Shown here: positions 922-17,555 of the stretch, in pieces
Layout of the letters: the number at the start of each line of letters is the position of its first letter
Position numbering within the stretch: the stretch's first letter is position 1
From: a virus
IMG/VR virus record: IMGVR_UViG_3300034198_024421
Location: 1-20,504 of that record
Length of the DNA stretch: 20,504 nt
Direction: 5' to 3' (one strand)
The notes under the pieces: model-generated
Seen by the model: only the letters and a program-made list of their open reading frames with translations
Told to the model about the DNA's origin: nothing
Databases searched by the model: none
Made by a program: the position numbers and the translations under genes

Positions 922-1115
922 GCGCCTTTTCTCCGGGGGTTAATCGATCCGAAACTGAATTGGGTCGAATCGCGCCATAAAGGGTCGCGCTTCCGTAAGA
1001 AGGCTTCGCAACGGGCACGCATGATGGCGGCATCGCCATGACTGATCTCGCCCCCGCTTTCGCTGATCTCAAAGCGGAGGTATTTGTTGTTCATTTTGGG
1101 ATTGGTTTCTTTCAT
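918..1115 (-). CDS. small hypothetical phage protein, 65 aa
   Basis: A 65-residue soluble basic protein that I do not recognise. Visible features are NKYLRFEISESGGEISHGDA and a following helix IMRARCEAFLRKRDPLWRDS. It starts at ATG 1115, overlapping the stop of the 87-residue gene as ATGA (1112-1115). An internal ATG (the M of MNNKYL, 1094) is an alternative start. Its own TGA overlaps the next start (918-921). Support comes from its place in an unbroken chain of 4-base overlaps rather than from homology. Confidence 0.65.
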   Translation of the reverse strand: MKETNPKMNNKYLRFEISESGGEISHGDAAIMRARCEAFLRKRDPLWRDSTQFSFGSINPRRKGA

Positions 1116-1375
1116 GAATCGCAGGCGGGTTGTGATGCGGATTGACTTTGTGAAGGTTGGAGGTCGACCTTAAGGAACTTCTCGGGCTCGCGCTCCCAGG
1201 CGGCAATAACGCGGGCACAATCCAGGCCAAAGGCCAGAAAGGTTCGGCTGAACATGGCCCCGTTCTCTGCCAAGACGCGGACATCCACGACCGGCACAAG
1301 GATGTTGTCGGGCTCGGCATGTGGTCGGGGATCCCCGATCAGGATGCGCGAAATGGTGAGAGGCTTTGCGGTCAT
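1112..1375 (-). CDS. hypothetical phage protein, 87 aa
   Basis: An 87-residue protein of unknown family directly behind the helicase. It is soluble. The N-terminal half reads like a short beta-rich domain (ISRILIGDPRPHAEPDNILVPVVDVRVLAENGAMFS) followed by a helix (ARVIAAWEREPEKFL) and a low-complexity S/Q tail. Its ATG overlaps the helicase TGA (ATGA, 1372-1375) with no Shine-Dalgarno sequence, so re-initiation by ribosomes finishing the helicase is likely. It overlaps the 65-residue gene in the same way at its end. Confidence 0.68.
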   Translation of the reverse strand: MTAKPLTISRILIGDPRPHAEPDNILVPVVDVRVLAENGAMFSRTFLAFGLDCARVIAAWEREPEKFLKVDLQPSQSQSASQPACDS

Positions 1376-2772
1376 GCGGCTTTTTTGTGGCCCGAATACC
1401 CCTTCTGATATTTCTCGGAGTTGTTGGAATACATCTCCTCGGTCTTGTCGCTGAATTTGGTATTCTCCCCCGAGAACATCAGCTCCAGCGGGCCGGTGGC
1501 GCCGTCGCGCTGCTTCTCAATCAAGATCGTGCAAGGCTCGACCGGTGCCTCCTTGTCACGGTGCATGAGGATGATGACATCGGCGTCCTGCTCAATAGTC
1601 CCGCTCTCGCGGAGGTCGCTGGCCTTCGGCAGGGATCGCTTGTCGGCGTCGCGGTTTAGCTGTGCCAGGGCCATGATCGGAATGTGCAGCTCCATGGCGA
1701 GCTGCTTCAGCCCTCCGGTGATGTCGCCGATCTCCAGGGCGCGATTCCCATCAGCCCGGCGGCTGGGGCAGCGCATGAGCTGAAGGTAGTCGATGACGAT
1801 GAAGTCGAGCTTGCCCTGGTACTTCATGCGGCGGGCCACCGAACGCAACTGGTGCAGGGTGATGGCGGGCGTGGTCTCCAGCCAGAGATTCCCCCCGGCA
1901 ATCTGCGCTCCGGCAGACCCAATCCGCTGGAGGTCCTGCCTGCTCATGAGCCCATCCTTGATCCGCTGGAGGGTGACTCCCGACTCACTGCAGATCATGC
2001 GGTTGGTCTGCTGGGTGCGGCTCATCTCCATGCTAAAGAACAGGCAATGAAATCCCTCCTTCACCGCGTGGGTGAGGATGTTGAGCGCAAGCGAACTCTT
2101 GCCAATGGCAGGCCGCGCACCCAGGACAATGAACTGGTCGGGCTTGAATCCGGTCAGCATCCGGTCCATGTCCTTGAATCCGGTGGGGATGCAACCGGGC
2201 TGCACGGCCTTGCCTCGGTTCTTATACATGGTTTCGATCTGCTCCAGCGACTCGTCCACGCACTTGCTGATGTGGGCAAGGTTGTCGCCCTGTTTCTTGT
2301 AGACATCGCGAATGCCAAGGAACTCGCTCTCGGCCATGCCGATCAGCTCCTGGGGATTCCCCCGGTCGTCATAGCTGAGGCACTGAGCACGGATGGTGTC
2401 GCAGGATTTCACCAGGCGCATGAGGACGGCCTTGCGCTGGACTTCGTTCATGTGCTCGGTGAAGAGGAACGTCGTGGAGGCAAACACCGCGATGTTGGCC
2501 ACGGCCGCCGCCCCTCCGGCCGCATCGAGGAGCTGCTTGTCGGTCAGGTGCTGGGTGATCGAAATCATGTCGCACCCTTGGCGGTTGGCATGGCGGTCGA
2601 GGATCGCCTCGCAGATCACGAGGTGACCCCCGCCACGGAAGGCCTCGGCTAAGGCCATGCCAACCCCCTCAAGGACGGGGCCAACGAAGTTCGCCGGATC
2701 CTGCATCATGCAGGAAAGGACGACCTTCTCCGATTCAGGGGAAGCGTTGGGAAGAGAGAACAGGTTGCTCAT
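1372..2772 (-). CDS. dnaB: replicative DNA helicase, DnaB family
   Basis: A 466-residue hexameric 5'-3' replicative helicase that unwinds the phage fork. The N-terminal primase-interacting helical domain covers about residues 8-125, then a linker and the RecA-like ATPase core. Walker A is GARPAIGKSS (218-227), followed by the SMEM segment (247-250), Walker B FIVIDYLQLM (324-333), the ALAQLNR sensor segment (368-374), SGTIEQDADVI (390-400) and the KQRDGATG loop (420-427) typical of DnaB. Length and motif order match full-length DnaB, and no intein is present. AGGAGG lies 4 bases before the ATG, and the start overlaps the stop of the DUF1376 gene (ATGA, 2769-2772). This pairing with the initiator-like gene is the classical phage replication module. 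A phage-encoded DnaB suggests that host helicase loading is bypassed or captured. Confidence 0.96.
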   Translation of the reverse strand: MSNLFSLPNASPESEKVVLSCMMQDPANFVGPVLEGVGMALAEAFRGGGHLVICEAILDRHANRQGCDMISITQHLTDKQLLDAAGGAAAVANIAVFASTTFLFTEHMNEVQRKAVLMRLVKSCDTIRAQCLSYDDRGNPQELIGMAESEFLGIRDVYKKQGDNLAHISKCVDESLEQIETMYKNRGKAVQPGCIPTGFKDMDRMLTGFKPDQFIVLGARPAIGKSSLALNILTHAVKEGFHCLFFSMEMSRTQQTNRMICSESGVTLQRIKDGLMSRQDLQRIGSAGAQIAGGNLWLETTPAITLHQLRSVARRMKYQGKLDFIVIDYLQLMRCPSRRADGNRALEIGDITGGLKQLAMELHIPIMALAQLNRDADKRSLPKASDLRESGTIEQDADVIILMHRDKEAPVEPCTILIEKQRDGATGPLELMFSGENTKFSDKTEEMYSNNSEKYQKGYSGHKKAA

Positions 2773-3713
2773 GCGGCCTCCTGGGCGATGGTGGGGTTGC
2801 GGTGAATATCGGCCTTAATCTCCGCAGTCAGCGCGGCCTGTTCGCGGATCTCGGCCTGCACGCTGGCCGGAAGGAAGCGGAAGGAGCTGGGGAAATTCCC
2901 GCTCTGCATTCCGTCCGGATAGTTCTCCGAATGCAGGTCGACCAGGATCTCGCGCCACTGAGTTGGAGCCACTACCTCATCGGGGGCCTTTTCTTTTTTT
3001 CCAAAAGATGACCCTTTTTTTTTTGCGATCTCGGTCGCCCGCTGGATCTCGCCGTGCCAGTTATTCAGCAGGGTGGCAAGGTCTCGGCGGCGGTACTCGG
3101 CCACCTCGCCGCCTTGGGCAAAATACCACTCCAGCAGCAACCAATCCCCCTCGGAGGTGGATTCAACGGCCGCCTTATTTTTTTTCCATGCGCGGTCTTG
3201 GGAGGAATCAAGGACAGTCGAGGGACGCATCCGGAAAAGCATCTTTGCCCGGTGGAGGGCAAGATTGTCATCGATGAGGTCGATGGATGTGTCCCCCGTG
3301 GGGACTATAGGGGTATCTGATAGCTGATTACTGATTATTGATATCGGCGCAGTTGCTTCGGTGTTGGTTTGCTTGTGTTTAGCATTTGCTTTCCGTTGCT
3401 TTGCTTTTGGCCTGCCGCCAGATTTGCCAGAGGTGGATCTTTTCTCGCAAAGTGCGGTGTATGCGGTGATCTCTGCGTGTGCTCGGGCATTAATCCACCC
3501 CTCGGGCGTGGGCTCAAAGTATTCGTTGAGGATATCCTCGACGACATTTGCTTCCATTTGGATTTTCCGTGAAAGCAAAAGGTTATCATTTGGTAATGGG
3601 GTCTCCTCGGTGTAGTAGAGGTCGAGCAGGCGCCGGTAGCACAAGTCCTCGTCATTGCTGAGGTGCCGGGTGCTGACCATGTAGTCGTTGATAAAGAATC
3701 GGTAGAAGTGCAT
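2769..3713 (-). CDS. DUF1376 (YdaU-like) phage replication-initiation-type protein
   Basis: Start chosen at ATG 3713 because the conserved domain begins right there (MHFYRFFINDYMVSTRHLS); 314 residues. Residues 1 to about 95 are DUF1376: YRFFINDY, LSNDEDLCYRRLLDLYY, PLPND and a GW-INARAHAE end. This family stands in place of replication initiators next to helicases or loaders in many phages. A basic linker with GKSGGRPKAKQRK (about 101-120) may contact DNA. The C-terminal half has an aromatic helical segment (GDWLLLEWYFAQGGEV..RRRDLATLLNNWHGEIQRA). It lies immediately upstream of dnaB with an ATGA overlap, which supports a role in origin melting or helicase recruitment (inferred). A run of ten A residues in the coding strand (3015-3024) encodes KKK. 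Confidence 0.85.
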   Translation of the reverse strand: MHFYRFFINDYMVSTRHLSNDEDLCYRRLLDLYYTEETPLPNDNLLLSRKIQMEANVVEDILNEYFEPTPEGWINARAHAEITAYTALCEKRSTSGKSGGRPKAKQRKANAKHKQTNTEATAPISIISNQLSDTPIVPTGDTSIDLIDDNLALHRAKMLFRMRPSTVLDSSQDRAWKKNKAAVESTSEGDWLLLEWYFAQGGEVAEYRRRDLATLLNNWHGEIQRATEIAKKKGSSFGKKEKAPDEVVAPTQWREILVDLHSENYPDGMQSGNFPSSFRFLPASVQAEIREQAALTAEIKADIHRNPTIAQEAA

Positions 3714-3724
3714 GGCGGGTGTGA

Positions 3725-4303
3725 TTAGATGCGGCCCTTTGCCCGTGGTCGCTCGGTGCAGCTCCAGAACTTGGGGATCTCGGCCTTGATGCACCCGCTC
3801 ATGACCATGCCACGGCACCAGGCGTTATTATCGGCCACCCTGACCCGCATGGTCTCGGGATTGCCCGGCTGCCGTGCCAGGACAAGGCGGGGATTAACCA
3901 CATGGGCGCTCAAAACGATGAGGGTGTCCTGCTGGGCGATCCGAGACTCTAGCTTCGCTAGGCCTCCGGCCGTGAGACGGACGAACCCTGCCTCGCGGAT
4001 GTAATCCTTCCCTGCATCGAGGATCCCCTTCCTAAGCCAGGTCACATCCTCATAACCGATGCCAAGGCGCTCGGCCGCAGATTCCTCGGAGTATGTAATC
4101 CCTGCCCCGACGGCGTCCTTGATTTTTTTTGCCATTTGACCCGCTTCTTTTTCAGTAATCGCGGAAGAGGTGGTTGGAGTGACGGCAGTCGTGGGCGAAT
4201 CGCTCAGGACGGCCGTGGCGGGGTTTTTTTTTGCAAACAGGGTGGTGATCGCACTAAAGGCGCCCCCCTCTTTTTTTGGCGGTGTTTTTTGTTCTGTGCT
4301 CAT
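3725..4303 (-). CDS. hypothetical phage protein with possible HTH, 192 aa
   Basis: Start chosen at ATG 4303 (MSTEQKTPPKK); the open frame continues upstream but that part reads as arginine/proline-rich noise. The N-terminal 60 residues are disordered, lysine- and threonine-rich. Residues about 70-100 (GITYSEESAAERLGIGYEDV and on) look like a helix-turn-helix or excisionase-type fold. The C-terminus (about 137-175, NPRLVLARQ..VRVADNNAWCRGMVM) is a beta-rich segment seen, to my recollection, in other phage early proteins of unknown function. It ends 11 bases before the DUF1376 gene, so it is probably co-transcribed with the replication genes. No function is assigned. Confidence 0.75.
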   Translation of the reverse strand: MSTEQKTPPKKEGGAFSAITTLFAKKNPATAVLSDSPTTAVTPTTSSAITEKEAGQMAKKIKDAVGAGITYSEESAAERLGIGYEDVTWLRKGILDAGKDYIREAGFVRLTAGGLAKLESRIAQQDTLIVLSAHVVNPRLVLARQPGNPETMRVRVADNNAWCRGMVMSGCIKAEIPKFWSCTERPRAKGRI

Positions 4304-4367
4304 GGTGTCGTGATGTGGTTGGTTGAATTGAAAGCGATCGATTAAAATAAAATTTCTATGTGACCAA

Positions 4368-5195
4368 TCAGTCGGGGTTTTCGGCCACCGGCTTCGCCGC
4401 AGACCCCCTCCCCCCCTCCTTGGCGGCCGCGGCGTTGGCCTTCGATGTCGGGGACTTTCTGGAGGATTTGGTGGGCGACTTTGTATCCGGAGTTGTAGCC
4501 GGATCCGCCTTATCAGTGTAGAATAGCGGAAAGATTGCTGATAACGGATCAGCACCCGAGGTCTGTATGTTAATTTTGTCCTGGTCGATTTGACATACAG
4601 AGACACCCAGCCGCACCGGATCCACATCGGGCAGCGCCGCTATTGGCTGAGTATTCTCGCCGCCCAGATTGATTGCAGACGCCGTTTCGGGTTCCCACTC
4701 GGCATCGATCACCGGCAACTCATCGAGCATCCGCTCCAGACCGGCTGCAACCTGACTCTGCTCAATCTTCTCAACTCGCGCCGTGACACCGCCGGTCAAC
4801 ACTTGACCTTTATCGATCAGAATACCTACAGCCATCGAAAGCTCACCTGGCTTGATGTTGCCATCAGCAATGATCTCCTCCAATCGCTCCACTCCCATAG
4901 CGGCCACCTTCAAAGCACGAGCACCGAGATCCTTTCTATGTGTGTCAATAGACTGACCCTCACGGATCATGACCGCCTCAATCGTCCGATGGTGCAGGCC
5001 GGTGAGTCGTTTGATCTCCCGAATACCTGTTCCCTGACCGAGAAGCTGAACCGTGATTCGGTAAAGATCCGGGCGTTGAGATATTAACCGATCACCAGTA
5101 GAAGCTCCCGTGAAGACAGGACTGCCTACCTTTTCCAACGCCAACTCCTCCTCAGAAAAAAGAGAAGGGGGCTCATTTGAATCCTTGGAATTCAT
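4368..5195 (-). CDS. HTH-domain phage protein, 275 aa
   Basis: Soluble protein in three parts: an acidic N-terminus (1-40), a helix-turn-helix (about 43-80: YRITVQLLGQGTGIREIKRL, then GLHHRTIEAV) followed by a long helical region (85-148, ALKVAAMGVERLEEI.. LIDKGQVLTGGVTARVEKIE), and a disordered S/T/K/A-rich tail (from about 228). The HTH plus helical LIDKGQVLTG arrangement recalls small DNA-binding phage proteins, including small-terminase-like ones, but its place in the early block fits an early regulator or replication factor better. It is separated from its neighbours by 64 and 76 bases, unlike the overlapped genes around it, so it may have its own promoter. The AT-rich gap just after it precedes the 192-residue gene. 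Confidence 0.75.
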   Translation of the reverse strand: MNSKDSNEPPSLFSEEELALEKVGSPVFTGASTGDRLISQRPDLYRITVQLLGQGTGIREIKRLTGLHHRTIEAVMIREGQSIDTHRKDLGARALKVAAMGVERLEEIIADGNIKPGELSMAVGILIDKGQVLTGGVTARVEKIEQSQVAAGLERMLDELPVIDAEWEPETASAINLGGENTQPIAALPDVDPVRLGVSVCQIDQDKINIQTSGADPLSAIFPLFYTDKADPATTPDTKSPTKSSRKSPTSKANAAAAKEGGRGSAAKPVAENPD

Positions 5196-5271
5196 TACAT
5201 TCTGGCCCGATAGATACCTATCAAAAAAAAGAAAAGGGACGCATACAGGGCGAGCTGAACGACGTCATGAA

Positions 5272-5463
5272 TCATGCCATGCGCTCCTCAATAAATTTCT
5301 GGATCGAAGACTCAGGAAATCGAATATCCTGCTCCAGCCTAAGCACCCGCCCGAACTTACCGGCCTTGACGTATTTGAGCACCGTGTTCTTGTGAATTCC
5401 TAACCGAACCGAAACATCCTTGGTGCTAAAAAACCGCTCATAATTAACCTTTGATGCACTCAT
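5272..5463 (-). CDS. excisionase-like HTH (MerR-type, HTH_17) protein, 63 aa
   Basis: A 63-residue protein that is almost entirely one winged HTH of the excisionase/MerR type: FFSTKDVSVRLGIHKNTVLK (about 11-30) is the HTH, followed by the wing GKFGRVLRLEQDIRFPESSI and a final helix KFIEERMA. The typical family pattern is S-T-K-D-V-A-x-x-L-G-V, then a T-V-x-x-Y segment, then R-x-P-x-S-x-I. In a phage carrying a tyrosine integrase this is a good candidate recombination directionality factor (Xis), although the same fold also serves as a transcription regulator. It overlaps the 37-residue gene upstream by ATGA (5460-5463), so it is translationally tied to the leftward early operon. That matches the need for Xis at induction. 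Confidence 0.85.
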   Translation of the reverse strand: MSASKVNYERFFSTKDVSVRLGIHKNTVLKYVKAGKFGRVLRLEQDIRFPESSIQKFIEERMA

Positions 5464-5573
5464 TGATCAGCTCCTGGGTAGACCGTGGATTGAATGCGCA
5501 GCCGGTCAGCAACCGCGGCCTCATAGCCGGTGACCCACTTGTACCAGGAATAAAAACGCTTCATCAGCTTCAT
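5460..5573 (-). CDS. 37-residue phage microprotein
   Basis: A very short gene (start ATG 5573, TGA 5460-5462) with product beginning MKLMKRFYSWYKWVTGYEAA. It is basic and aromatic at the N-terminus, with a helical middle (GYEAAVADRLRIQ). Evidence that it is real: it exactly fills the space between two neighbours with ATGA overlaps at both ends (5570-5573 with the 80-residue gene, 5460-5463 with the excisionase-like gene). No family is recognised. It may act as a small binding protein, or it may exist mainly to carry ribosomes from one gene to the next. Confidence 0.7.
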   Translation of the reverse strand: MKLMKRFYSWYKWVTGYEAAVADRLRIQSTVYPGADQ

Positions 5574-5812
5574 AGAACGGACGATGTGATCGACTGCCCG
5601 GTCCGCATCCAGCGATGGCACCCGCGCCATATCGCCTGAGCCGCTTCCGGGTCTTCGGTAAATGCCCTCATCTCCCCGTTGAGACGTACCTCATAAAAAA
5701 AAGAAACGGCCGCGCCATGGATCGCCTTGAGGAATTCCCCAGGGATCACCTTGCGAAGCGTCAAAAGGTTTCGCCCCTGCTTGATCTCGACCTCAATGAT
5801 CTCGCGGTTCAT
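5570..5812 (-). CDS. hypothetical phage protein, 80 aa
   Basis: Start chosen at ATG 5812 (MNREIIEVEI), which lies one base past the stop of the membrane-peptide gene; upstream extension in frame has no coding look. The product is a small mixed alpha/beta protein: strand-rich REIIEVEIKQGRNLLTLRKV, helix GEFLKAIHGA, strand SFFYEVRLNGEMRAF, then helix DPEAAQAIWRGCHRWMRTG. No family is recognised. It is coupled to the 37-residue gene by ATGA (5570-5573). Probably an early accessory protein. Confidence 0.7.
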   Translation of the reverse strand: MNREIIEVEIKQGRNLLTLRKVIPGEFLKAIHGAAVSFFYEVRLNGEMRAFTEDPEAAQAIWRGCHRWMRTGQSITSSVL

Positions 5813-5813
5813 A

Positions 5814-5984
5814 TCAGCGAAGGGCAAGGCGATAGCCGGGACGACGGCGGGCTGGCAGCATCCGATCCAGTGACGTATTGCGGTGGCGAATGAATGCCAT
5901 GGCCGCAATCGCTAAAAGCTCAGCCGCCTCACGACGGCAGATTGCAAGAGTTCCAACAATGATTCCAAGTGCCAGGATGATCAT
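5814..5984 (-). CDS. small single-span membrane protein, 56 aa
   Basis: Starts at ATG 5984, overlapping the RHH gene stop as ATGA (5981-5984), and stops at TGA 5814-5816, one base before the next start. The N-terminus MIILALGIIVGTLAI is a short hydrophobic helix, followed by a charged stretch RREAAELLAIAAMAFIRHR and an arginine-rich tail. It would sit in the inner membrane with a basic cytoplasmic tail. A small membrane protein in an early operon could act in superinfection exclusion or host-envelope modulation (inference), or simply be a phage orphan. No family is recognised. Confidence 0.62.
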   Translation of the reverse strand: MIILALGIIVGTLAICRREAAELLAIAAMAFIRHRNTSLDRMLPARRRPGYRLALR

Positions 5985-6166
5985 TTTGATTCTTTGTTTT
6001 CGTGTTGTAGTTCGGTTGTGCCACATTCCGACACCAAATAATTGCGAATAGCAATTCGTGCCAGGTCCGATGGTTTGAGCCAATTCTTCTTGGCCGCTGC
6101 AGCAAGTCTGGACTTGAGTTCTTCGGGCAAGCGAAGCGTTAGGGTGGTATCGAGTTCGTCTGTCAT
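5981..6166 (-). CDS. ribbon-helix-helix (CopG/Arc-type) DNA-binding protein, 61 aa
   Basis: Start chosen at ATG 6166 (MTDELDTTLTLRLPEELKSR), which puts the DNA-binding strand at the usual distance from the N-terminus. The strand TTLTLRLP (7-14) plus helices EELKSRLAAAAKKN and KPSDLARIAIRNYLVSE is a textbook ribbon-helix-helix fold. Such proteins bind short palindromes as dimers and act as phage repressors or antitoxin-like regulators. It is the first gene of the leftward operon, directly beside the divergent control region and opposite another RHH gene. Repeats with TGTG-S-CACA cores lie just upstream of its start and again inside its own 3' end (6017-6025). Likely role: autoregulating switch protein. 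Confidence 0.85.
   Translation of the reverse strand: MTDELDTTLTLRLPEELKSRLAAAAKKNWLKPSDLARIAIRNYLVSECGTTELQHENKESK
5996..6026 (+). repeat. composite repeat, copy 1 (GTTTT..GTTGTAGTT..TGTGCCACA)
   Basis: This copy reads GTTTT, three bases, GTTGTAGTT (6004-6012), four bases, then the palindromic core TGTGCCACA (6017-6025). The second copy is at 6167-6196, with the same blocks in the same order and spacing within one base. This copy lies within the last codons of the minus-strand RHH gene and about 12 bases upstream of the membrane-peptide start. The two copies flank the RHH gene as direct repeats. Confidence 0.7.
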
Positions 6167-6196
6167 GTTTTGAGTTGTAGTTGATATGTGGCACAA
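6167..6196 (+). repeat. composite repeat, copy 2 (GTTTT..GTTGTAGTT..TGTGGCACA)
   Basis: Direct counterpart of 5996-6026: GTTTT (6167-6171), GTTGTAGTT (6174-6182), then core TGTGGCACA (6187-6195). Because the core TGTG-S-CACA is self-complementary, it reads the same on both strands. This copy abuts the minus-strand RHH start codon, so a protein bound here would block that gene's leader. Confidence 0.72.
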
Positions 6197-6258
6197 GTCA
6201 AACACAAATAAGCAATTTGACTATGGCAATTATGATTTCATTGTGCCACATTGGGATT
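6167..6258. promoter_or_regulatory. divergent control region with candidate RHH operators
   Basis: AT-rich segment between two oppositely oriented RHH genes. It holds two copies of the near-palindrome TGTG-S-CACA (6187-6195 and 6242-6250). Between them is an inverted pair of TTTGAC hexamers (plus 6216-6221; minus 6202-6197) that could be two diverging -35 elements. TATGAT at 6231-6236 is a possible -10 for the rightward gene; no equally good -10 is seen leftward. If GTG 6259 is the true rightward start, the 6242 box lies in its leader. This layout resembles a lysis/lysogeny switch; the operators and promoters are inferred. Confidence 0.6.
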
Positions 6259-6510
6259 GTGAAACGAGAAAGCACATTCAACTTCCGACTTCCCAGCACG
6301 CTAAAACAGCGTCTGGATCGCATAAGCGATGAGCGCGGAATATCAAAAGCCGATATTGCTGTGGCGGCCATACGCGAATTTTTGGAAGCCTTGGAGCGAT
6401 TAGATCGCCCCAATTTGTTTCATCGAGTGTATCCGACGGCGGGTAATATCGGATCCTTGCAACCCCCGGAAAACGTCGAACAAACGAAGTTACGCCGAAA
6501 GAAATCGTAA
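6232..6510 (+). CDS. ribbon-helix-helix DNA-binding protein, rightward
   Basis: A second RHH protein, only distantly similar to the leftward one: strand STFNFRLP, helices STLKQRLDRISDERG and SKADIAVAAIREFLEAL, then a basic, proline-containing tail (about 40 residues). The start is uncertain. ATG 6223 and 6232 are possible, but GTG 6259 (preceded by GGGA) gives an N-terminus of normal RHH length and would leave the TGTGCCACA box at 6242-6250 in the leader. As the first rightward gene, followed by cargo and integrase, it is the better candidate for the lysogeny maintenance repressor, with the leftward RHH as its opponent (inference, cro/cI-like logic with a different fold). Confidence 0.78.
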   Translation: MISLCHIGIVKRESTFNFRLPSTLKQRLDRISDERGISKADIAVAAIREFLEALERLDRPNLFHRVYPTAGNIGSLQPPENVEQTKLRRKKS

Positions 6511-6574
6511 CCCTACCCTGTTTTACCTACAGCAACGACCTGATTGACGACAAGTTAATATATTTGAAAATAAC

Positions 6575-7936: not shown

Positions 7937-9103
7937 ATGAGCGCAAAAGTTGTTGGCAAATTCAAACATCAGGGCAAATCCTACAGCTTCTATCAGAAGC
8001 CTGGGAACCCCAATCTCTACATCCGCGTCCAGCACCAGGGAAAGGCCCGATGGAAATGCCTCGATACCCCTGACAAGAAGGCGGCGGCGATCCGTGCCGG
8101 GATCTGGATTGATTCCCTATTCAACAGCAAGTGGGATGTGCTTGAGACGTTAAAGACCCGAAACGAGTTTGCCACCATTGGCGAGATCATCGACGTATTC
8201 CTTGCCAACATCCGTCACCTTGGGATCAAGCACGCCACGGCCAAGGGATATGTCGTGAGCTTGAAGAACATTCTTGGCGATGCCTTGGGCTCAGAGGATC
8301 CCTTATCGTTGAAGTCCACCGTGCTCACCGGCGAGACGTTAAACAAATTCGTTGCCGTTTCGCGCCAGGCACGACGGCCCGATTGGTCCATCTCGGGCCA
8401 GATCGGACAGGCGCGTAGCATTTTGAAGGAACGCGAGGGCCGCATGGATATTTACAATGCTTTGCGGTTACCCGATCTCACCACTTGGAGGAATGCCAAG
8501 TGGGCTTTTGAGACCAATATCCGTCGCGGGTTTGTCCCTTTCACGACTCAGCAGGTCCTCGACCTTGAGGCAGGGGCCGCCCAGCTCTATGACGAACGCA
8601 ATCCCGTATGGATTTCCTACACCCTCATGAGCCTCTATGGATTGCGTAACAGCATGGTTAAGAACCTCAAGAAGAGCGACTTTACCATCACCGAGAGCGC
8701 CATCACGTTTATTGTCAAGGGAGACTATGCCGAGGCCAAGGCCGTGGAGCACACTATTGACAAGGAGACCTACGAGAAGATCACGACCTTCTTTGACGAT
8801 GGCGAATATGTCCTGCCAGGGTCGAAAACGAAACGCCAGCACGCCAGCAATACCGAGCTAAACAATTTCATGCGGCGCTTTGTGGATCGATCTACTCAGG
8901 GAGAGCGTAAAAAAGCGTATTTGCTTCGTAGACAGGCCGCCACCGTCATGGCCGATGCCAAGGACATCTTTGCCGCGCAGGCCATGTTGGGGCATAAAAG
9001 CGTCAAGACAACCGAGAACGATTACGGTCCCCGCGTGCTTCGCAGTCCTGGCATTTCTCCTGACGACATCCGGAAGTATTACCGGATCGAGAGGCAGGCC
9101 TAG
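7937..9103 (+). CDS. int: tyrosine recombinase (phage integrase)
   Basis: A 388-residue site-specific recombinase for integration and excision. Residues 1-60 are a basic arm-site-type domain, about 78-175 the SAM-like core-binding domain (IGEIIDVFLANIRHLGIKHATA), and about 200-388 the catalytic domain. Catalytic residues seen: Arg237 in YGLRNSM; a candidate Lys261 or Lys268 in the beta-hairpin; Arg331 in AYLLRRQAA; His353 in LGHKS; Tyr363 in ENDYG. At the position of the usual HxxR histidine there is Tyr328, a substitution known in divergent integrases. The gene is full length, starts at ATG 7937 without a Shine-Dalgarno sequence, and shares its stop with the convergent gene (CTAG). It reads rightward while nearly all other phage genes read leftward. 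Confidence 0.92.
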   Translation: MSAKVVGKFKHQGKSYSFYQKPGNPNLYIRVQHQGKARWKCLDTPDKKAAAIRAGIWIDSLFNSKWDVLETLKTRNEFATIGEIIDVFLANIRHLGIKHATAKGYVVSLKNILGDALGSEDPLSLKSTVLTGETLNKFVAVSRQARRPDWSISGQIGQARSILKEREGRMDIYNALRLPDLTTWRNAKWAFETNIRRGFVPFTTQQVLDLEAGAAQLYDERNPVWISYTLMSLYGLRNSMVKNLKKSDFTITESAITFIVKGDYAEAKAVEHTIDKETYEKITTFFDDGEYVLPGSKTKRQHASNTELNNFMRRFVDRSTQGERKKAYLLRRQAATVMADAKDIFAAQAMLGHKSVKTTENDYGPRVLRSPGISPDDIRKYYRIERQA

Positions 9104-9327: not shown

Positions 9328-10316
9328 TGGAATTTCCCAGCAAGCTGACCCAGCAGGGACCGGCCCCCAATGATTGGAATGTTTAAGTGGAGGAATTCCC
9401 CGCTGCGGGCCACCGACTGAATGGCAAAACCATGCGTCCAGGACGTTGGGAATGTATGGCACCAGAGCGGTTGGAGTTCACAGAGGCACCCAGGATTCCA
9501 CGACTTGATCTGCCCGGTGTGGACCGGCCGAGCACTGGATGATTGCTCCCTGTGCGTATGGCCAAAGACAATGTTCCCGGCAAACGAGGAGAGCATCGTT
9601 GTCGTGGCCTGCTTCGATGTGGAGGATCCGTGGGTAAAGTAGCACTTGCCCCGCTTGATCGTCCCCGAGAGCGACAGGCCGTCATAGCATTCGGCCTGAC
9701 GATAGTAGGGAATGCCGCGTTCTTTGAGCCGGAGGAGAAACTCCGGGGCAAAGGCCCGCCGGAGATACTCAGCATCCTTGGAGTTGCGTAATGTTTGCGT
9801 GATCGCCCATTGCTCAATCCGGCGCTCGTGGTTGCCCTCGATGTATTCCACTTTGGCACGAGGCGCTGCGGCCTGCAGCGCATCGAGGAATGCATTGGTG
9901 GCCGCAATGTCGGCCTCATAAGTATAGGAGGACTCCGCCACAAATCCCATCACATGGTGTTGGGCGAGGAATCCCCCGCAGTCGACATGGTCTCCGAGGA
10001 GGATTATCTCATCCGGGTCGAGGGCTTGGATGTCACCCAGGCACGCTGCCAGCGCCGCTTTGTCAACCTTGGCCCCATGTGTATCGGGAATGATAACCCT
10101 GACGATGTCGTCTTTCCCTTTGCGGGTTGGTTTGGCTGGGGTGATGACCCGAGCCTTTGGAGTGTGGAGGTGACGGTCGAGGGTAGCGGCAAGCTTTGCT
10201 TTGGACGATTCCGAGGCCTTGAGCTGATCCTTGAGCTTGGCAATCTCAGCGGCATGAGACGACGCCTCTAGGTCAGCACGCAGGGCCTTGGCTGAGATGA
10301 GGCGTTTCATGGTCAT
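9324..10316 (-). CDS. calcineurin-like metallophosphoesterase
   Basis: A 330-residue enzyme with the full metal-site set of the calcineurin-like phosphoesterase superfamily: D78-x-H80 in IIPDTHG, GDHVD (D109, D112), GNHE (N162-H163), H229 in YFTHG, and GHTH (H253, H255). It would hydrolyse phosphodiesters or phosphomonoesters with two metal ions; the substrate is unknown. An N-terminal coiled coil (about 16-50) and basic linker (54-68) precede the catalytic domain. The gene follows the giant virion gene with an ATGA overlap (10313-10316) and is coupled to the small winged-helix gene. Phage copies of this family are thought to act on nucleic-acid ends or nucleotides; its late position also allows packaging with the virion. 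Confidence 0.93.
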   Translation of the reverse strand: MTMKRLISAKALRADLEASSHAAEIAKLKDQLKASESSKAKLAATLDRHLHTPKARVITPAKPTRKGKDDIVRVIIPDTHGAKVDKAALAACLGDIQALDPDEIILLGDHVDCGGFLAQHHVMGFVAESSYTYEADIAATNAFLDALQAAAPRAKVEYIEGNHERRIEQWAITQTLRNSKDAEYLRRAFAPEFLLRLKERGIPYYRQAECYDGLSLSGTIKRGKCYFTHGSSTSKQATTTMLSSFAGNIVFGHTHREQSSSARPVHTGQIKSWNPGCLCELQPLWCHTFPTSWTHGFAIQSVARSGEFLHLNIPIIGGRSLLGQLAGKFQ

Positions 10317-13300
10317 CTTGCCACATCCGGCATCATGTTGTTGTTGACCTTAAAATAATCGAAATGGAATCCCTGCAGCGGTTGTCCGTAAGTGGGCGAT
10401 CCTTTGTCCTGGTCGGTGACACGGTTCATGTCCTCGATGCGGTCCATGCGGATACGGCGGACGACCCCTTGTGGCCCGAAATTGGAGGCCAGCGGGTTTG
10501 CATTCCGATGGACCTTGGAAAAGGAAGTGAGGACGGCATTGACTTCTTTGCGCTTTCCTTCCCCGATCCCGTTTTCACCAGGTAAGCCTTCCTTGTGGTT
10601 TTTCACATACTGCATGATGGAATCACGGATCGCAGCCGCATCATTGTTGTGAAACGGGAAAAGCCCCTGATTGATTCCCTTGAGGACATTCCGCTGCACT
10701 GCCGAGTCATCGATTGTATGGGCAAGGAGATGCCCTTCCTTGGAGACCGAATACTCAAACGGTTCCCAAAAATTCCGAGTGATTGAACGGATATTTCCAA
10801 GGTTGAGGATGCGATAGCTGCCGGACTCTCCCGTTCCCGTGCGGTTCACCTTCATCCGATACACACCACCCTGCCCGGCATCATTGCGCCAAGTATTGGC
10901 AATGGACTGAATCCATGGTCCGAAATGCTGGAGCGCACCCATCGTGGCCGGGAGCTGCGATCCGGAGATCACTTTCTTGCCATCGACCATGCGCGGGCCG
11001 AGCACGGGATCATTCTTGGGTCGTAGGGCCGTGCCGACCGCCGAGGCGATTTGATCTTTGCGTAGCTGATCTGTCTGTTTGATTTCGTCTTGAGATTTGA
11101 AAGTGACCGTGCCGTTGTCATTACGCAGGAAATCATTTTCAAAGACTCCGGGCCGTCCTGGCACGGGTCGCAGGTTGACCAGGTTCGACCGCGCCATGTC
11201 ATAGGGAGACCCCGACGGGGCAATTTGAGTTCCCTCGGTACGTTTGGCACCGAGATCGATGCCGTTCAGCCATGAATCGTAAGAACTGACATATTTTGCC
11301 AGTTGTTTGGAAAGTGTCGGAGAAGATCCAACCAAGGGATTGTCTTTGAATATCGTAGATAATGAACCGATCACCTTTCCGGTTTGCGGATCTATGGAAA
11401 CACCTTGAGCACCTAATGATCGGGCATTCATGGCAAGAATGGATCGGGTGGCCGCATCGGGGTCAACATTTGCAGGCAATCCTTTGCGGATCGAATTCAC
11501 ATCGATACCGGCTTGATTCATATGTTCGGCAAAAATTTCATCCCGCGCCCAATCCAGCGGATGTTCATCACCGGCCGCCATCCCATTGTCGGAGAGTTGC
11601 TGGACCCGTTGCGTGACCCGATCATCCAACGGGGGAAATGTCGGGATGGGTTGCTTATCTTTGATTGCCCGATCCATGAGCGCCCGTTGTTCTGATTCAA
11701 CTTGAGCTTTGGCATATTCACGGGCACGGGCATCGATTCCATCATCCCCGTAAAGTTGTTGGATGAAATTCCGTGCATCGGATCGTTGCGCTCCATCCAT
11801 GACATTGGATGCCAGGATCGCATGGCCGAGCCCTTCATGAATATCTGCCGGGTGCTCCGCATCGAGGTTAATGAAAACCCGTGCCCGCTGGCCGGGGGGG
11901 GCATCGACAAACCATCCTGCAGCACCCCGTCCACCGAGTGCGGCGACGTTGGCCGAATAGTCAGTTCCATCGAGGGGAACCGTATCGGCCGGTGCAATCC
12001 CTGGTTGATTGGCAAGCGCAGTTCCGACCTGTTTGTCAAAGGCCCCCTGTTCAATGACGTTTCCCGTGGCCGGATCAACTTTGGGTTGATTATCGAGCGG
12101 AATGACATCGGTGCCTTTAAGTGAAAGCAGACCTTGAATTGCGGCAAGGTTTTGGAGGCGACTTGCCGGAAGATTGGCAACCTTATTGACATCGCCACCG
12201 ACCAATGCCGTATCCGCCAGGAATCTTGCCACATCTTGATTGCGTTCCCTGGTTGAATTTCCCAGAACGCGGGACGCAAGGCCCCCAGCCGCGCCAAAAC
12301 CAAATCCAGCACCGACCGTGGCACCGGCCTGTTCGTCATTCTGGCCAATGGTTAGCGGAAGCATGGAGAGCGAGCCGCCAATTCCCCTTTCGACCGCCGC
12401 ACCCGCCGTGCGCGAGGCGCCGACCAGCACGGGATTGTTAGCTTTTGCAGCGATGCGTCTGACCCATGCAGGATAGGAATCTGAATTTGCTATTCGTGAA
12501 GGTGTTGAATCGATGGCGCCCGTTCCTCCGGTGGCCACGGCATCACCGGCTGCCGTGCGATAGGCTTCCGGGATGGCAGGGTTGGAAGCAATGGCGCCAA
12601 GCGCATCTTGACGCAACGGCCCCATGGTGTCGGAGGCCTCACGCAGGATCGTACCCGCGACCTGAGCGCCTTGGCCAACCGTTCTGACCACGGCCGCACC
12701 TTTGCGCAGCGCCAGGTATCCAAGCACGGGTTTCATGGCCGACCAGAGAGGGTTGCCACCCTCCTCATCATGGGAGGCACCACTCCACCCGACGAGCCCC
12801 GCACCACCGGCAAGGGCACCCCCGGCGATATCCGCCCCATCATAGACCTTGTCTCCGATCTTGACCGCAGGGATCACCGCATTGACTCGGTCGATGGCGG
12901 CCTTGGCAAGGTTATCGAGCGCATCATTGGCAATGATTGTTCCCGATCCGAGCCCTTGCAAGACGCGGCCGGAAGCATATTTGACCATGTTGCCAATCGG
13001 CACTTTGGAGATTAGCGCACCTGCGGCCCAGGCAATCTGATTTTCCGGCGCTGAGGCCATGGCGGCGGCACCGGTCAGATCCTTGAGTGGTGCGGTGTCT
13101 GGGTTATTGAATGATGCGGCAAGCGCCTGTTGAACTGCTTGTCTCGATGCATCATCGGGAGCCAACATGGAAATAATTTGAGGAACCGACGTGACCGTTG
13201 GGTGTGCGATCTCCCGTTTGAATGCATTGTTCTCGAGATAATTCCCATACCCAGCATCGGCCCCAGCCTTGATTTGCTCGGGAGTGGCATTAACGAGTCC

Positions 13301-13963
13301 GGCATCGGCCGATCCATCAACAAGGCCTTGGATCCCTTGCTTTACTTGTTTGTAAAGAAGTTTGGTGTTCATCCCGGCATTGCGGACACCCTGCAGCCAC
13401 GAGTTAGCCACGGCCGTTTCATGGTTAAGAAATTTCTCCGTGGTATCAGCAAGATCACCATTGTAACGCGGCACATTCCAGAGGTCTTTGATCCCGCCAT
13501 AAGTCGTCTGGAATAAACCCCCAATACCTCCAGCGATATTGGAAAGAGCCGAACTCATAAAGCTACCCCCCACCCGTTGACGGGCCGCCTGGGCGGCATC
13601 CCATTGATCTCGGGTCATGTCGACCGACGGATCATTGAGCGCATCGACCTGCATTTTATCCAGATCGGTCGATGAATAGGTTTTTGGCTGGATCGGACCG
13701 AGTCCCGTGGCGTTGTAGGGACTTGGCGAGGATGGCCCAGCAAGCGGGGATGCGGGCATGGATGACCCATACGCAGCATTGATATGACCAGCGGCCTGGG
13801 CTTGATCTTCCATGGCCGCGATGTCTGCATCGCTATAGATTGCCCCATCCGTGGATGGCGTGGGTGCAACGGACGGTGCTGGCATTGGCGCGGGTTGCGT
13901 ATCACCCGGCGCTGAGGCCATGGCGTTCAGATCCTCATCGCTGACGATGTCGCCGATGGCCAT
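10313..13963 (-). CDS. large virion-associated protein with HExxxH motif, 1216 aa
   Basis: Start chosen at ATG 13963 (MAIGDIVSDEDLNAM), four bases after the stop of the 412-residue gene; the longer frame to 14017 overlaps that gene. Residues 1-110 are disordered and proline-rich, with three short look-alikes: IVSDEDLNAM (6-15), IYSDADIAAM (42-51), TYSSTDLDKM (95-104). Long Gly/Ala-rich helical segments follow (for example SALSNIAGGIGGLF and AGGALAGGAGLVGW) that could enter a membrane. Around residue 709 is HEGLGHAIL, an HExxxH metal-site-like motif. The C-terminal 270 residues form a polar, folded domain. Size, position after ejection-type genes and composition fit an internal virion protein delivered with the DNA, comparable in role to P22 gp16 or a phage polyvalent protein (inference). 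Confidence 0.82.
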   Translation of the reverse strand: MAIGDIVSDEDLNAMASAPGDTQPAPMPAPSVAPTPSTDGAIYSDADIAAMEDQAQAAGHINAAYGSSMPASPLAGPSSPSPYNATGLGPIQPKTYSSTDLDKMQVDALNDPSVDMTRDQWDAAQAARQRVGGSFMSSALSNIAGGIGGLFQTTYGGIKDLWNVPRYNGDLADTTEKFLNHETAVANSWLQGVRNAGMNTKLLYKQVKQGIQGLVDGSADAGLVNATPEQIKAGADAGYGNYLENNAFKREIAHPTVTSVPQIISMLAPDDASRQAVQQALAASFNNPDTAPLKDLTGAAAMASAPENQIAWAAGALISKVPIGNMVKYASGRVLQGLGSGTIIANDALDNLAKAAIDRVNAVIPAVKIGDKVYDGADIAGGALAGGAGLVGWSGASHDEEGGNPLWSAMKPVLGYLALRKGAAVVRTVGQGAQVAGTILREASDTMGPLRQDALGAIASNPAIPEAYRTAAGDAVATGGTGAIDSTPSRIANSDSYPAWVRRIAAKANNPVLVGASRTAGAAVERGIGGSLSMLPLTIGQNDEQAGATVGAGFGFGAAGGLASRVLGNSTRERNQDVARFLADTALVGGDVNKVANLPASRLQNLAAIQGLLSLKGTDVIPLDNQPKVDPATGNVIEQGAFDKQVGTALANQPGIAPADTVPLDGTDYSANVAALGGRGAAGWFVDAPPGQRARVFINLDAEHPADIHEGLGHAILASNVMDGAQRSDARNFIQQLYGDDGIDARAREYAKAQVESEQRALMDRAIKDKQPIPTFPPLDDRVTQRVQQLSDNGMAAGDEHPLDWARDEIFAEHMNQAGIDVNSIRKGLPANVDPDAATRSILAMNARSLGAQGVSIDPQTGKVIGSLSTIFKDNPLVGSSPTLSKQLAKYVSSYDSWLNGIDLGAKRTEGTQIAPSGSPYDMARSNLVNLRPVPGRPGVFENDFLRNDNGTVTFKSQDEIKQTDQLRKDQIASAVGTALRPKNDPVLGPRMVDGKKVISGSQLPATMGALQHFGPWIQSIANTWRNDAGQGGVYRMKVNRTGTGESGSYRILNLGNIRSITRNFWEPFEYSVSKEGHLLAHTIDDSAVQRNVLKGINQGLFPFHNNDAAAIRDSIMQYVKNHKEGLPGENGIGEGKRKEVNAVLTSFSKVHRNANPLASNFGPQGVVRRIRMDRIEDMNRVTDQDKGSPTYGQPLQGFHFDYFKVNNNMMPDVAR

Positions 13964-13967
13964 GGGC

Positions 13968-15206
13968 TTACTGGATCTGCTTCCACTGACCGTTTCCGAG
14001 CGACTGGAAGGTTCCACGCCCAGGGATCGTTTTAATCACCGGAGCTGTGGCGGCAGGCACTGAAGCCGGAGCCGCCGATTGGTTTCCAGTAACAGACGCC
14101 GACGGAGAATAGGAAAATTGCTTGAGGAGGTCTTGGTTGACCGAAGGCATTTTGTCGATTTGCGCTTTCTTGGCGTCGATTGCCTTGTTGAGGATCCCAA
14201 CATATTCACCCACCGAATTTTTGAATGTTTCGGGGGATTGATAGGTCTGCAAACGATTGACCGCATCCTTGACGGCCTGAGCTTCCTGCTGGGTGATTCG
14301 GAAACCAAGTGATGACCCCGGGGTGGAGGCCTCGTCCTTGAGCATGTTGATTCCGGAAATTAGATTCTGTCCTGATACTTGTGCCAAACGTGCTTGCAAA
14401 TCACGTTGACCCGGTGTTACGGCCGGGAGGAAACGAGCCGCCCCGACTACATATTTCAGTTCCGGATGGTCGGCGATTGCCTGCAAATTGTCGCGCTGCG
14501 TTTCAAGTGAGGAGACCTGGTTGCTTGCATCCTGCAATGCTTTCCCTTTGGCCAGCTCCCCGGCAATGACCTTGGATTGGGATTCGGCCGTCTGGGCCTG
14601 CAGGTTTTGATCTTTCATCCCCTGGGTGGAGATTTCATGTTGCATCTGCTGGAGCTTGAGCTGCTTCTCCGGGTCTTGAAGTTCAAGCTGTTTGAGCATC
14701 AGGGCATCAAAAGCTTTATGGGCTTGCAAACGATCCGCCGGGGTCAAATCGATGTTGACCCGACCGGTCTGGATCATGAACTTGTCAAAATCAGAATACT
14801 GCGGCTGGGCGGTTTGCCGCCCTGCCTGTTGGCCAACCTGTTGTTGGTTCATGCCCATCCCTTGATTGGCCGCACCATTCGGCGTGTAGGGATTGGTTGC
14901 TGGGTTAAATGTGACCGATGTTCCAGATTGCGAAGGATCTGATCCTGCGCTGCCTGGGTTCCCTAATTGAGCCGCCGATGGCGCGGGCGGTGGCATCGGC
15001 CCCGAAGTAAATCCATTGGGGTCATCCATGGTTGCCAGGACGGCCGGATCGATTCCGCTGGAGGTATTTTGGGGCATCGATTGCGCAAGCATGGGCGCAA
15101 TGCCCGCCGCTTGCAGGTCTGCCGGGCTGATCCCTTGCTGGGGAATGGTGATCGAGCCATTGCCTTGGGCGGGTACGCCCAGGTTCATGAGTTCTTCGGC
15201 GGTCAT
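13968..15206 (-). CDS. internal virion/ejection-type protein, 412 aa
   Basis: A 412-residue soluble protein. The disordered N-terminus (1-135, Q/P/N/G-rich) carries short helical motifs MTAEELM, ISPADLQAAG and IDPAVLATM, similar in style to those in the next gene. Residues about 136-245 form a long Q-rich coiled coil (LQAHKAFDALMLKQLELQDP and on). About 255-365 (RFLPAVTPGQRDLQARLAQV, SGQNLI.. FRITQQEAQAVKDAVNRLQT, YQSPETFKNSV) is a helical domain whose pattern I associate with phage virion proteins near ejection genes. The tail is S/A/P-rich. It lies between the 145-residue protein (3-base gap) and the 1216-residue protein (4-base gap). It is probably one of the DNA-delivery proteins. Confidence 0.8.
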   Translation of the reverse strand: MTAEELMNLGVPAQGNGSITIPQQGISPADLQAAGIAPMLAQSMPQNTSSGIDPAVLATMDDPNGFTSGPMPPPAPSAAQLGNPGSAGSDPSQSGTSVTFNPATNPYTPNGAANQGMGMNQQQVGQQAGRQTAQPQYSDFDKFMIQTGRVNIDLTPADRLQAHKAFDALMLKQLELQDPEKQLKLQQMQHEISTQGMKDQNLQAQTAESQSKVIAGELAKGKALQDASNQVSSLETQRDNLQAIADHPELKYVVGAARFLPAVTPGQRDLQARLAQVSGQNLISGINMLKDEASTPGSSLGFRITQQEAQAVKDAVNRLQTYQSPETFKNSVGEYVGILNKAIDAKKAQIDKMPSVNQDLLKQFSYSPSASVTGNQSAAPASVPAATAPVIKTIPGRGTFQSLGNGQWKQIQ

Positions 15207-15665: not shown

Positions 15666-17555
15666 TTAATTTCCGTAATAGGCGGCACCTACTTTGCCGA
15701 TTGTTCCGATTGCACTGCCCAAAAGCGCATTATTGCTGGCATAATTTGCCGCATTATAATTGTTACCGGACGACCAGTTACCCGAAGCAAGGTTGGTATT
15801 GAATGACGGTACATTTCCAGCTACCTCCATTCCTTGACCATACGAGTTGTTCACAAGACCACTCTGGAATCCAAGGTTCTGCGCCGTGTATGGCACACTA
15901 TAGCCTAAAGACATTGTGTAAGGGTTGAGCGAGCTATACATTCCGGCACCTTGAAGGCCGAGTCCAGTGGCACTGCCGAGGGCCGATGCCGATTGGCCCA
16001 GCATATTGGACGAATTTCCAAGCAGGCCCGAGGCGGCGGCCGCGTTCCCGTTATTGGATTGGTTGACCCCTTGATTTGCGTTGAGTAGGAAATTCTGACT
16101 TTGCCCCGTGTTGGTGAGGTTGGCAGATTGATTCATTCCCTGACGCTGAATATCTTGGCCATTGTATTGGCCTTGGGCGCCGAGGTTTGAGCTCTGGCCT
16201 GACAAATCGTATCCGGCATTGGCTAGATTGGTATTTTGCTGGTATCCCGAATTGACCTGATTGGTATTAAAAGCCGTGTTTTGATTCTGAATTCCCGCCT
16301 GCTGCTGATACCCGGCATTGGTTGTGTTGGCGTTTTGTTGGTTTCCCGTATTGATCTGACCGGTATTGAATTGCGTGTTCTGATTTTGGACTCCGGCCTG
16401 TTGCGCGAGCTGAGCATTGGTCTGGCCAGCCTGTTGGGTGTACCCGGCATTGTAATTGCCCAGTTGCAGGTTCGTGTTCTGGTTCTGGATCTGGCCTTGA
16501 TTGGAGGCCGCCTGATTGGAAAGGCCAAACTGGTTGAGCGAATTTGTGTTGGCCTGACGCAATGCCGTGTCGGCATTGTTTACATTTTGGCCGAATGCCT
16601 GGTATTGCTGGAGTCGGGCATTGGTGGCCGCATCACGGTTGAGGATTCCGGCGGCGGCCGCACTGGCACCGGTGCCGAGACCATTGGCCGACCAAGTCGC
16701 GGCAGCCTGCTGGGAAGCATTCCGCAAGGCCTCGGGGCTGAGTTGACCCCCGGACGCAAGTTGATCCTGTGCCTGACGCAGAAGCTGGTTGCCGAGCCCA
16801 CTGCTTTCCGTGGTTTGCGCTCTGGCCATGGTCGGCCGGACTTGTTGGATCGGGGAAATCTGGGCGGCCCGCATTGAGGCAGCGGTCACGTTGTCGACCG
16901 GGGCCATTTGCGCGGCCGTGACGTTCGCGGCCGTGACATTGTCGACCGGGGCCATTTGCGCTGCCGTGGCCGTAGGTGCCTGTATGTAGTTGAGCGCACC
17001 AGGGGCTGAGACCTGAGTCGCCGTGTTATTCATGGCCGTCAGGCCGGCATCTTGTAACTTTTGGGTCAGCGGGGTGGGGCTTGAAGCCCGAGCCACAGCC
17101 GAAGCGGCAAGACCAGTATTAACCCCGGATAGGGATCCCATTCCCGATCCGATTCCCTCAATCGAGTTGACGTTGCCAAGTGCATGGTCGGTAGCGGCAA
17201 GGGCCTGTTTCTCTTGGGGAGATTTGGCAATCTTCTTGGCGACACTATTGACCGTGTCAAATTGCTGATTGCTGATCCCGCTATACCCCCCGTTGGTGAC
17301 ATTCCCGAGTCCGGAACTGTAAATCTGCGAACCACCCGAAGTTCCATTATTGATGATGTCTTGGAAGTTCAGCGGTTTGGCAGGATTCTGGCCAATACTA
17401 GGTGAGCCGTTTGACATAAAACCGCCAGCCAAGGCTCCCAAAGCGGCACCGCCAAGCATTCCAATCGGCCCACCGGCCAGGCCAATCATAGCTCCACCGG
17501 CCGCGCCTCCGGCAGCGCCTTTGGCTGCACCTGATCCAGAAAATGTTGATCCCAT
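15666..17555 (-). CDS. Gly-zipper and Q/N-rich internal virion protein, 629 aa
   Basis: Residues 9-46 are a strongly hydrophobic Gly/Ala zipper (AAGGAAGGAMIGLAGGPIGM and on) able to insert in a membrane. Residues about 190-235 are three 16-residue repeats (TAAQMAPVDNVTAANV type). The central region (about 240-365) is Ala/Gln-rich helix, and about 365-455 is Q/N-rich with tandem units (QQAGIQNQNTAFNTNQVN type). The C-terminal third is G/N/S/Y-rich. Composition and neighbours fit a P22 gp7/gp20-like DNA-ejection protein that forms a conduit through the envelope, though sequence identity to those is not evident. It starts at ATG 17555 with no Shine-Dalgarno sequence. Confidence 0.8.
   Translation of the reverse strand: MGSTFSGSGAAKGAAGGAAGGAMIGLAGGPIGMLGGAALGALAGGFMSNGSPSIGQNPAKPLNFQDIINNGTSGGSQIYSSGLGNVTNGGYSGISNQQFDTVNSVAKKIAKSPQEKQALAATDHALGNVNSIEGIGSGMGSLSGVNTGLAASAVARASSPTPLTQKLQDAGLTAMNNTATQVSAPGALNYIQAPTATAAQMAPVDNVTAANVTAAQMAPVDNVTAASMRAAQISPIQQVRPTMARAQTTESSGLGNQLLRQAQDQLASGGQLSPEALRNASQQAAATWSANGLGTGASAAAAGILNRDAATNARLQQYQAFGQNVNNADTALRQANTNSLNQFGLSNQAASNQGQIQNQNTNLQLGNYNAGYTQQAGQTNAQLAQQAGVQNQNTQFNTGQINTGNQQNANTTNAGYQQQAGIQNQNTAFNTNQVNSGYQQNTNLANAGYDLSGQSSNLGAQGQYNGQDIQRQGMNQSANLTNTGQSQNFLLNANQGVNQSNNGNAAAASGLLGNSSNMLGQSASALGSATGLGLQGAGMYSSLNPYTMSLGYSVPYTAQNLGFQSGLVNNSYGQGMEVAGNVPSFNTNLASGNWSSGNNYNAANYASNNALLGSAIGTIGKVGAAYYGN
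16200..16460 (-). repeat. in-gene repeats encoding Q/N-rich units
   Basis: Within the 629-residue gene, the stretch encodes repeating QQAG.QNQNT.FNT.Q.N.G.QQN units of about 29 residues (two clear copies plus partial ones). The DNA shows the same repeated segments (for example tgttttgattctgaattcc and its degenerate partners). It probably arose by slippage or unequal crossover. Confidence 0.65.
16891..16960 (-). repeat. 48-bp in-gene repeat (16-residue unit)
   Basis: The 22-base stretch beginning ttgtcgaccggggccatt is identical at 16891-16912 and 16939-16960, offset by 48 bases. It encodes the unit AAQMAPVDNVTAA twice; a third diverged unit (RAAQISPIQQV) follows in the protein. Being in frame, it lengthens a linker without breaking the gene. 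Confidence 0.85.

Follow-up and report, generated by a model that had tools for sequence, protein, structure and literature searches.

A divergent pair of ribbon-helix-helix proteins as a putative exchangeable immunity module in an uncultivated phage lineage

The stretch of DNA analyzed here, hereafter the window, corresponds to an entire IMG/VR virus record (G000) of 20,504 bases, in which two small ribbon-helix-helix (RHH) proteins, RHH1 and RHH2, are encoded back to back next to repeated TGTG-S-CACA boxes. We consider it fairly probable that this locus is an exchangeable immunity module, with RHH2 as a CI-like repressor and RHH1 as a Cro-like early gene. The earlier note on this DNA had proposed a CI/Cro-like switch built from two RHH proteins. 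The location of the divergent pair where the early and integrase operons meet, the presence of a box in the early promoter and the exchange of boxes together with RHH2 all speak for this proposal, whereas the binding of the same boxes by both proteins does not fit box types B to E described below, where the boxes follow RHH2 and not RHH1.

Genomic context of the RHH pair

On the minus strand, a leftward early/replication operon begins with RHH1 and goes on with the small membrane-like ORF, the 80-aa ORF, the excisionase-like gene, the primosomal gene and the helicase gene. On the other strand, RHH2 opens a rightward operon with the integrase at its end, RHH1 and RHH2 being separated by a divergent intergenic gap of 92 bp (Table 1). 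As judged from the predicted gene functions, this arrangement is that of a lysis-lysogeny junction. We infer that these phages lysogenize because both an integrase and an excisionase-like gene are present; scans of 84,980 species genomes with RHH1 and the terminase returned no integrated prophage. The terminase of the window has distant matches only among phage records, and the largest protein of the window, encoded by a 1234-aa ORF at 10313-14017, lacks a PHROG match as well as any relative among 50,697 phage records.

Table 1 Positions of the RHH genes, boxes, promoter elements and neighboring genes in the window.
Feature	Position	Strand	Remarks
DnaB-like replicative helicase	1372-2772	-	Leftward operon; PHROG match
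Primosomal protein homologue	2769-3818	-	Leftward operon; PHROG match
HTH_17/excisionase-like gene	5272-5463	-	Leftward operon; Pfam HTH_17 E = 6.5e-11; excisionase phrog_66 E = 4.8e-7
Conserved 80-aa early ORF (SFFYEV...WRGCHRW)	5570-5812	-	Served as syntenic anchor
Small membrane-like ORF next to RHH1	5814-5984	-	Also in sister phages
RHH1	5981-6166	-	61-aa RHH protein; putative recognition strand T-L-T-L-R
Box 3, TGTGCCACA	6017-6025		Inside RHH1 at its 3' end (Cys-Gly-Thr codons); exact in 7/8 type A phages
RHH1 promoter -10, TACAAC	6174-6179	-	7 nt before ATG
Box 1, TGTGGCACA	6187-6195		-35/-10 spacer of the RHH1 promoter; exact in 8/8 type A phages
RHH1 promoter -35, TTGACT	6196-6201	-	Adjoined by box 1
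ATAAG-N7-CTTAT, degenerate copy	6208-6224		RHH1-RHH2 intergenic region; conserved element of types A-E
Box 2, TGTGCCACA	6242-6250		8 bp ahead of the RHH2 GTG; exact in 7/8 type A phages
RHH2	6259-6510	+	83-aa RHH protein, GTG start at 6259; putative recognition strand T-F-N-F-R
Tyrosine integrase	7937-9103	+	End of the rightward operon; Pfam Phage_integrase E = 2.2e-8; phrog_1 E = 4.7e-17

Conservation of the TGTG-S-CACA boxes

The palindrome TGTGSCACA occurs three times within 234 bp, boxes 3 and 1 lying 170 bp apart, at exactly the positions given by the earlier note, and nowhere else in the contig. This clear enrichment (0.19 copies expected in the window; 0 of 100 shuffles reached three) vanishes when one mismatch is allowed (6 copies found versus 7.8 expected), so that the signal is the exact palindrome.

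Phages of the same type as the window, named type A, were collected by protein searches and by a DNA search for two of the boxes, the third box being outside the search pattern. The same RHH pair is carried by seven other phages, in addition to the nearly identical contig 3300032271_001027 (36 kb); in the six phages that were aligned, RHH1 is 61–68% and RHH2 50–63% identical to the window proteins. Loss of the boxes in relatives would have spoken against the earlier note's reading, but they are conserved at fixed offsets in the seven relatives: all type A phages (n = 8 with the window) carry them at -149, +20 to +22 and +74 to +77 from the RHH1 start, with single-mismatch exceptions in L012 (box 3) and L036 (box 2). 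The orientation of box 1 varies between phages (TTGTGCCACAT or ATGTGGCACAA), as expected for the target of a symmetric dimer. In box 3, synonymous positions of RHH1 are preserved: TGT, GGC and ACA are the sole codons used wherever these phages have Cys-Gly-Thr, while most other RHH1 codons, including other four-fold sites, vary among them.

Five of the 12 two-box matches in viral contigs (L015, L018, L021, L022 and L023) were discarded as unrelated chance or repeat matches. The RHH1 relatives found first (L006–L010) are other phages, and neither of the two examined, L007 and L010, has this architecture.

Fold and relatedness of RHH1 and RHH2

Both proteins belong to the RHH (MetJ/Arc) superfamily, RHH1 as assigned from its sequence and RHH2 also from its predicted structure. 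Their single-sequence Pfam RHH matches lie under the curated cut-off, the PHROG matches of the pair are CopG/Arc-like repressors, and profile searches match the solved RHH protein ORF56 (E = 1.2e-4 for RHH1 and 0.008 for RHH2). The RHH2 model has an extended N-terminus followed by helices 13–26 and 30–47, and its top PDB matches in a fold search are mostly RHH proteins (CopG, Arc, AmrZ), none with E < 0.001. The RHH1 model is too poor for such use (pLDDT 63, uninformative fold search), which is why its fold assignment rests on sequence.

When compared as profiles by hhalign, the two proteins align with 96.8% probability and 33% identity over 42 columns, which marks the type A RHH1 and RHH2 as predicted paralogs. 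The divergent RHH pair of the earlier note is thus borne out, whereas its description of the two proteins as unrelated in detail is not. Alternate residues of the N-terminal strand are invariant in both: T8, T10 and R12 of RHH1 across the seven aligned type A sequences, and T6, N8 and R10 of RHH2 in the aligned type A sequences. This pattern is compatible with a dimer reading DNA by its N-terminal strand. Mnt has a recognition strand similar to that of RHH2.

The RHH1 promoter

A promoter of the form TTGACW-N16-TACAAM lies upstream of RHH1 in 8/8 type A phages, with box 1 directly after the -35. It was found by comparison between phages, having been overlooked by a generic sigma-70 scan because its -10 is weak. 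The short distance from this -10 to the ATG implies a near-leaderless early mRNA.

The earlier note had taken two inverted TTTGAC hexamers as possible back-to-back -35 boxes. Both are present, at 6197-6202 on the minus strand and at 6216-6221 on the plus strand; the former is conserved as the RHH1 -35, whereas the latter, absent from the seven type A relatives, was rejected as a -35 of RHH2. No RHH2 promoter was identified at the locus, and RHH2 has no clear Shine-Dalgarno sequence.

Other RHH pairs with other boxes in sister phages

Two phages, G004 and G006, have terminases 94–97% identical to that of the window lineage, yet they lack these RHH proteins and boxes. When the syntenic loci of sister phages were located by using conserved neighboring genes as anchors, a divergent RHH pair was observed in 19/19 usable loci. 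The comparison comprises 8 loci of type A, 11 of types B–E and 5 others. Eight box types, A to H, assigned by hand from the DNA, can be distinguished, with clear odd palindromes in four of them: TGTG-S-CACA in type A (three boxes), CCTT-W-AAGG in type B (3 copies), CTTT-N-AAAG in type C (2–4 copies) and CATT-N-AATG in type D (2–3 copies). Types E to H are less certain, as they comprise few loci or repeats of other geometry. Type E has repeated ACAGA half-sites, and the clearest member of type F, L169, carries CTAGTT-N5-AACTAG. The repeats of types G (CTCATGAG) and H (TTGGTGCA) lie in the RHH1 promoter region and at the RHH1 3' end, 170 and 181 bp apart, respectively, type G having the same spacing and layout as type A. 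The difference between the two spacings amounts to one helical turn, which would suit looping but is no evidence of it.

The boxes are specific to their types. Among 34 records, multiple copies of TGTGSCACA occur in type A genomes only, a single copy being present in three of the others, and TCTTTNAAAGA is confined to the three type C genomes, at the RHH locus or just downstream of RHH2. The RHH1 promoter recurs at the same place as TTG...N17...TA in types C, E, F and H, with their own repeats inside. The RHH1 -10 is similarly close to the ATG in types F and H.

Several other observations were made in these phages. The type C phages have one or two extra boxes about 420–470 bp rightward, just upstream of the next rightward gene (L158:4010-4020, L159:4076-4086 and L155:4062-4094, in reverse complement coordinates); the extra box of L158 and L159 has a TTGACA in front of it, suggesting that RHH2 may control a second promoter. 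A third small RHH-like protein, with no Pfam match, is encoded in the rightward operon (L039:12879-13151, L126:1932-2207, and also in L041 and L125). The type F RHH2 resembles the family of this third protein, suggesting its recruitment into the RHH2 slot. Also in the rightward region, G003 encodes an ArdC-type antirestriction protein (ArdcN + MPTase-PolyVal; L039:13283-14155) between RHH2 and the integrase, and G020 a RadC/JAB-domain protein (L125:2444-2935) in the rightward operon. Near the terminase, L038 encodes on its minus strand (16817-17128) a small metalloprotease-like protein with an HELLH motif and weak IrrE/M78 and phage metalloprotease matches, which could have an ImmA-like role in repressor inactivation.

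Co-variation of the boxes with RHH2 and exchange of the module

What changes across types B to E is RHH2 together with the boxes, RHH1 being nearly constant (up to 96% identical). Over these 11 loci, RHH2 identity is 82% within a box type versus 54% between types (p = 0.0004); the corresponding values for RHH1 are 74% and 77% (p = 0.97). A label-free Mantel test on intergenic 5-mer content agrees more weakly with the link between RHH2 and the boxes (r = 0.39, p = 0.018 for RHH2; r = -0.18, p = 0.84 for RHH1). As RHH1 remains constant while the boxes change, it probably does not read the boxes of types B to E in a sequence-specific manner. RHH2 most likely reads them and represses the RHH1/early promoter in a CI-like way. 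For type A, where RHH1 and RHH2 both differ from those of types B to E, reading of the boxes by RHH2 would hold by analogy with the latter.

The similarity breakpoints outline the exchanged segment. At the DNA level the window matches G004 over positions 1003-5938 (75%), and this similarity disappears across the RHH module. The match to L154 stops at 5857 and restarts at 6515, directly behind the stop codon of RHH2. In L012 and L013, which have another backbone, the only match near the locus covers 6011-6293. One immunity type can therefore sit on more than one backbone and one backbone can carry more than one type, and the exchanged segment appears to be just the RHH1-RHH2 module. The mark of a heteroimmune series, a syntenic module whose repressor and operators co-vary among relatives, is recognizable in these sequences, and the related phages most likely form such a series, built from RHH proteins.

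The element ATAAG-N7-CTTAT, a second palindrome of the locus, is found in 17/34 records (types A–E), at the RHH locus and nowhere else in those records, its carriers being the window, L012, L013, L017, L019, L020, L025, L036 and the type B–E intergenic regions, and it is kept across differing RHH1 and RHH2 proteins. It is a candidate target of RHH1 in types B to E, although type A keeps it despite a different RHH1.

Proposed mechanism and alternatives

According to the mechanism that we propose, RHH2 dimers would bind the short palindromic boxes and, on box 1, within the -35/-10 spacer, would shut the RHH1 promoter in the prophage state, turning off the leftward early operon with its excisionase-like protein, primosome and DnaB genes. 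Box 2, close ahead of the start of RHH2, may serve RHH2 autoregulation, and box 3, 170 bp from box 1 within the RHH1 gene, may be an auxiliary operator that acts through looping or as a roadblock. As the early operon's first product, RHH1 would be the Cro-like partner. The type A RHH1, as a paralog of RHH2, may share the boxes, while the RHH1 of types B to E would have to read something else. Other RHH2-box combinations on the same architecture would render related phages heteroimmune.

A strict CI/Cro analogue, with competition of the two proteins for one set of TGTG-S-CACA boxes that they would bind in opposite affinity orders, would suit the homology of the type A proteins seen in their hhalign match and the likeness of their recognition strands, all invariant, T-x-T-x-R in RHH1 and T-x-N-x-R in RHH2; we nevertheless regard it as rather doubtful, since in types B to E the boxes change with RHH2 under a nearly unchanged RHH1. 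It is improbable that the locus is a secondary immunity region like P22 immI, where the genes under control of the RHH pair would be accessory ones or that of an antirepressor, with the true prophage repressor encoded elsewhere. Such a secondary role is exactly that of Arc/Mnt, the closest known RHH pair (PMC11016777, PMC7549136). Here, however, the RHH pair heads both the replication operon and the integrase operon, and scans of genes of the window and its relatives revealed no CI/S24-type repressor.

RHH antitoxins bind palindromes within their own promoters, and RHH1 has a weak HicB-family match and is followed in sister loci by a small membrane-like ORF; RHH1 could thus be antitoxin-like and the boxes its operator, in a toxin-antitoxin or plasmid-type autoregulation involving, for example, this ORF. 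This is very unlikely, as the boxes track RHH2 rather than RHH1, one of them lies at the RHH2 start, a second divergent RHH gene is present in all loci, and no known toxin family appears among the neighboring ORFs scanned, where 5460-5630 and 5570-5908 gave no Pfam match. There is only the slightest chance that the boxes are recombination joints or replication iterons and not operators: cross-backbone similarity does begin near box 3 (6011) and end just past box 2 (6293), but the boxes differ between types at the same place, they sit in promoter spacers, and those of type A are three separate sites and not an iteron array.

Taking RHH2 as the repressor of an exchangeable module, we lean slightly towards a broader view, that of a temperate lineage whose primary lysis-lysogeny switch consists entirely of RHH proteins, which has diversified into at least four, and probably eight, immunity specificities while its framework hardly changed, and whose RHH2-operator pairs form a readable specificity series for strand-mediated recognition. 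RHH pairs seem to hold the primary switch position in this uncultivated phage lineage, repressor and operator changing together while the remainder of the locus is kept. If true, these phages would offer natural experiments on the evolution of immunity specificity and on a possible simple code of the RHH recognition strand, and the RHH-box types would provide a sequence rule predicting which phages exclude each other.

Comparison with known systems

To our knowledge, phage immunity is understood almost entirely through helix-turn-helix (HTH) repressors, RHH repressors being known mainly from the accessory locus of P22. There, arc and mnt are divergent, and the Arc operator lies between the -35 and -10 of Pant. 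This immI locus likewise is a phage immunity region with a pair of small RHH repressors, and the likeness to the window, a divergent RHH pair with boxes in the shared promoter region, is one of architecture only. Mnt represses arc and ant, while Arc represses mnt and moderates ant (PMC11016777, PMC7549136). The P22 locus is secondary, acting via the antirepressor Ant on the HTH repressor C2, whereas the pair described here directly heads the early and integrase operons, and the scanned genes of the window and its relatives include neither an ant gene nor a CI/S24 or HTH prophage repressor. Furthermore, box and protein specificity vary between relatives here.

The nearest solved structures to RHH1 and RHH2, by profile and by fold, are of the CopG/ORF56 type (2k9i, 1b01), plasmid copy-control repressors; in those systems one RHH protein controls plasmid replication, without a divergent partner or an integrase operon. 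No earlier report of an RHH pair as a primary phage switch was found in the open-licence literature.

Lambda CI/Cro and the lambdoid immunity groups share with the present locus the divergent regulators at the early/lysogenic junction, the operators within a promoter and the block-swapped module. Their regulators are HTH proteins, the prophage repressor having a cleavable C-terminal domain, whereas here they are RHH proteins of 61–83 aa without such a domain, one box lies inside the first early gene and operators need not be common to both regulators. Cluster A mycobacteriophages use a single HTH repressor with 20–30 stoperator sites across the genome (PMC6550527). They too have a series of repressors with matching, diverging sites, heteroimmunity and some sites in transcribed regions (PMC6550527); here, in contrast, there are two RHH proteins and about three to five sites at one locus. 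The closest precedents for exchange or divergence of repressor-operator specificity are thus HTH systems, and what appears new here is an RHH pair at the putative primary switch whose specificities are exchanged between related phages.
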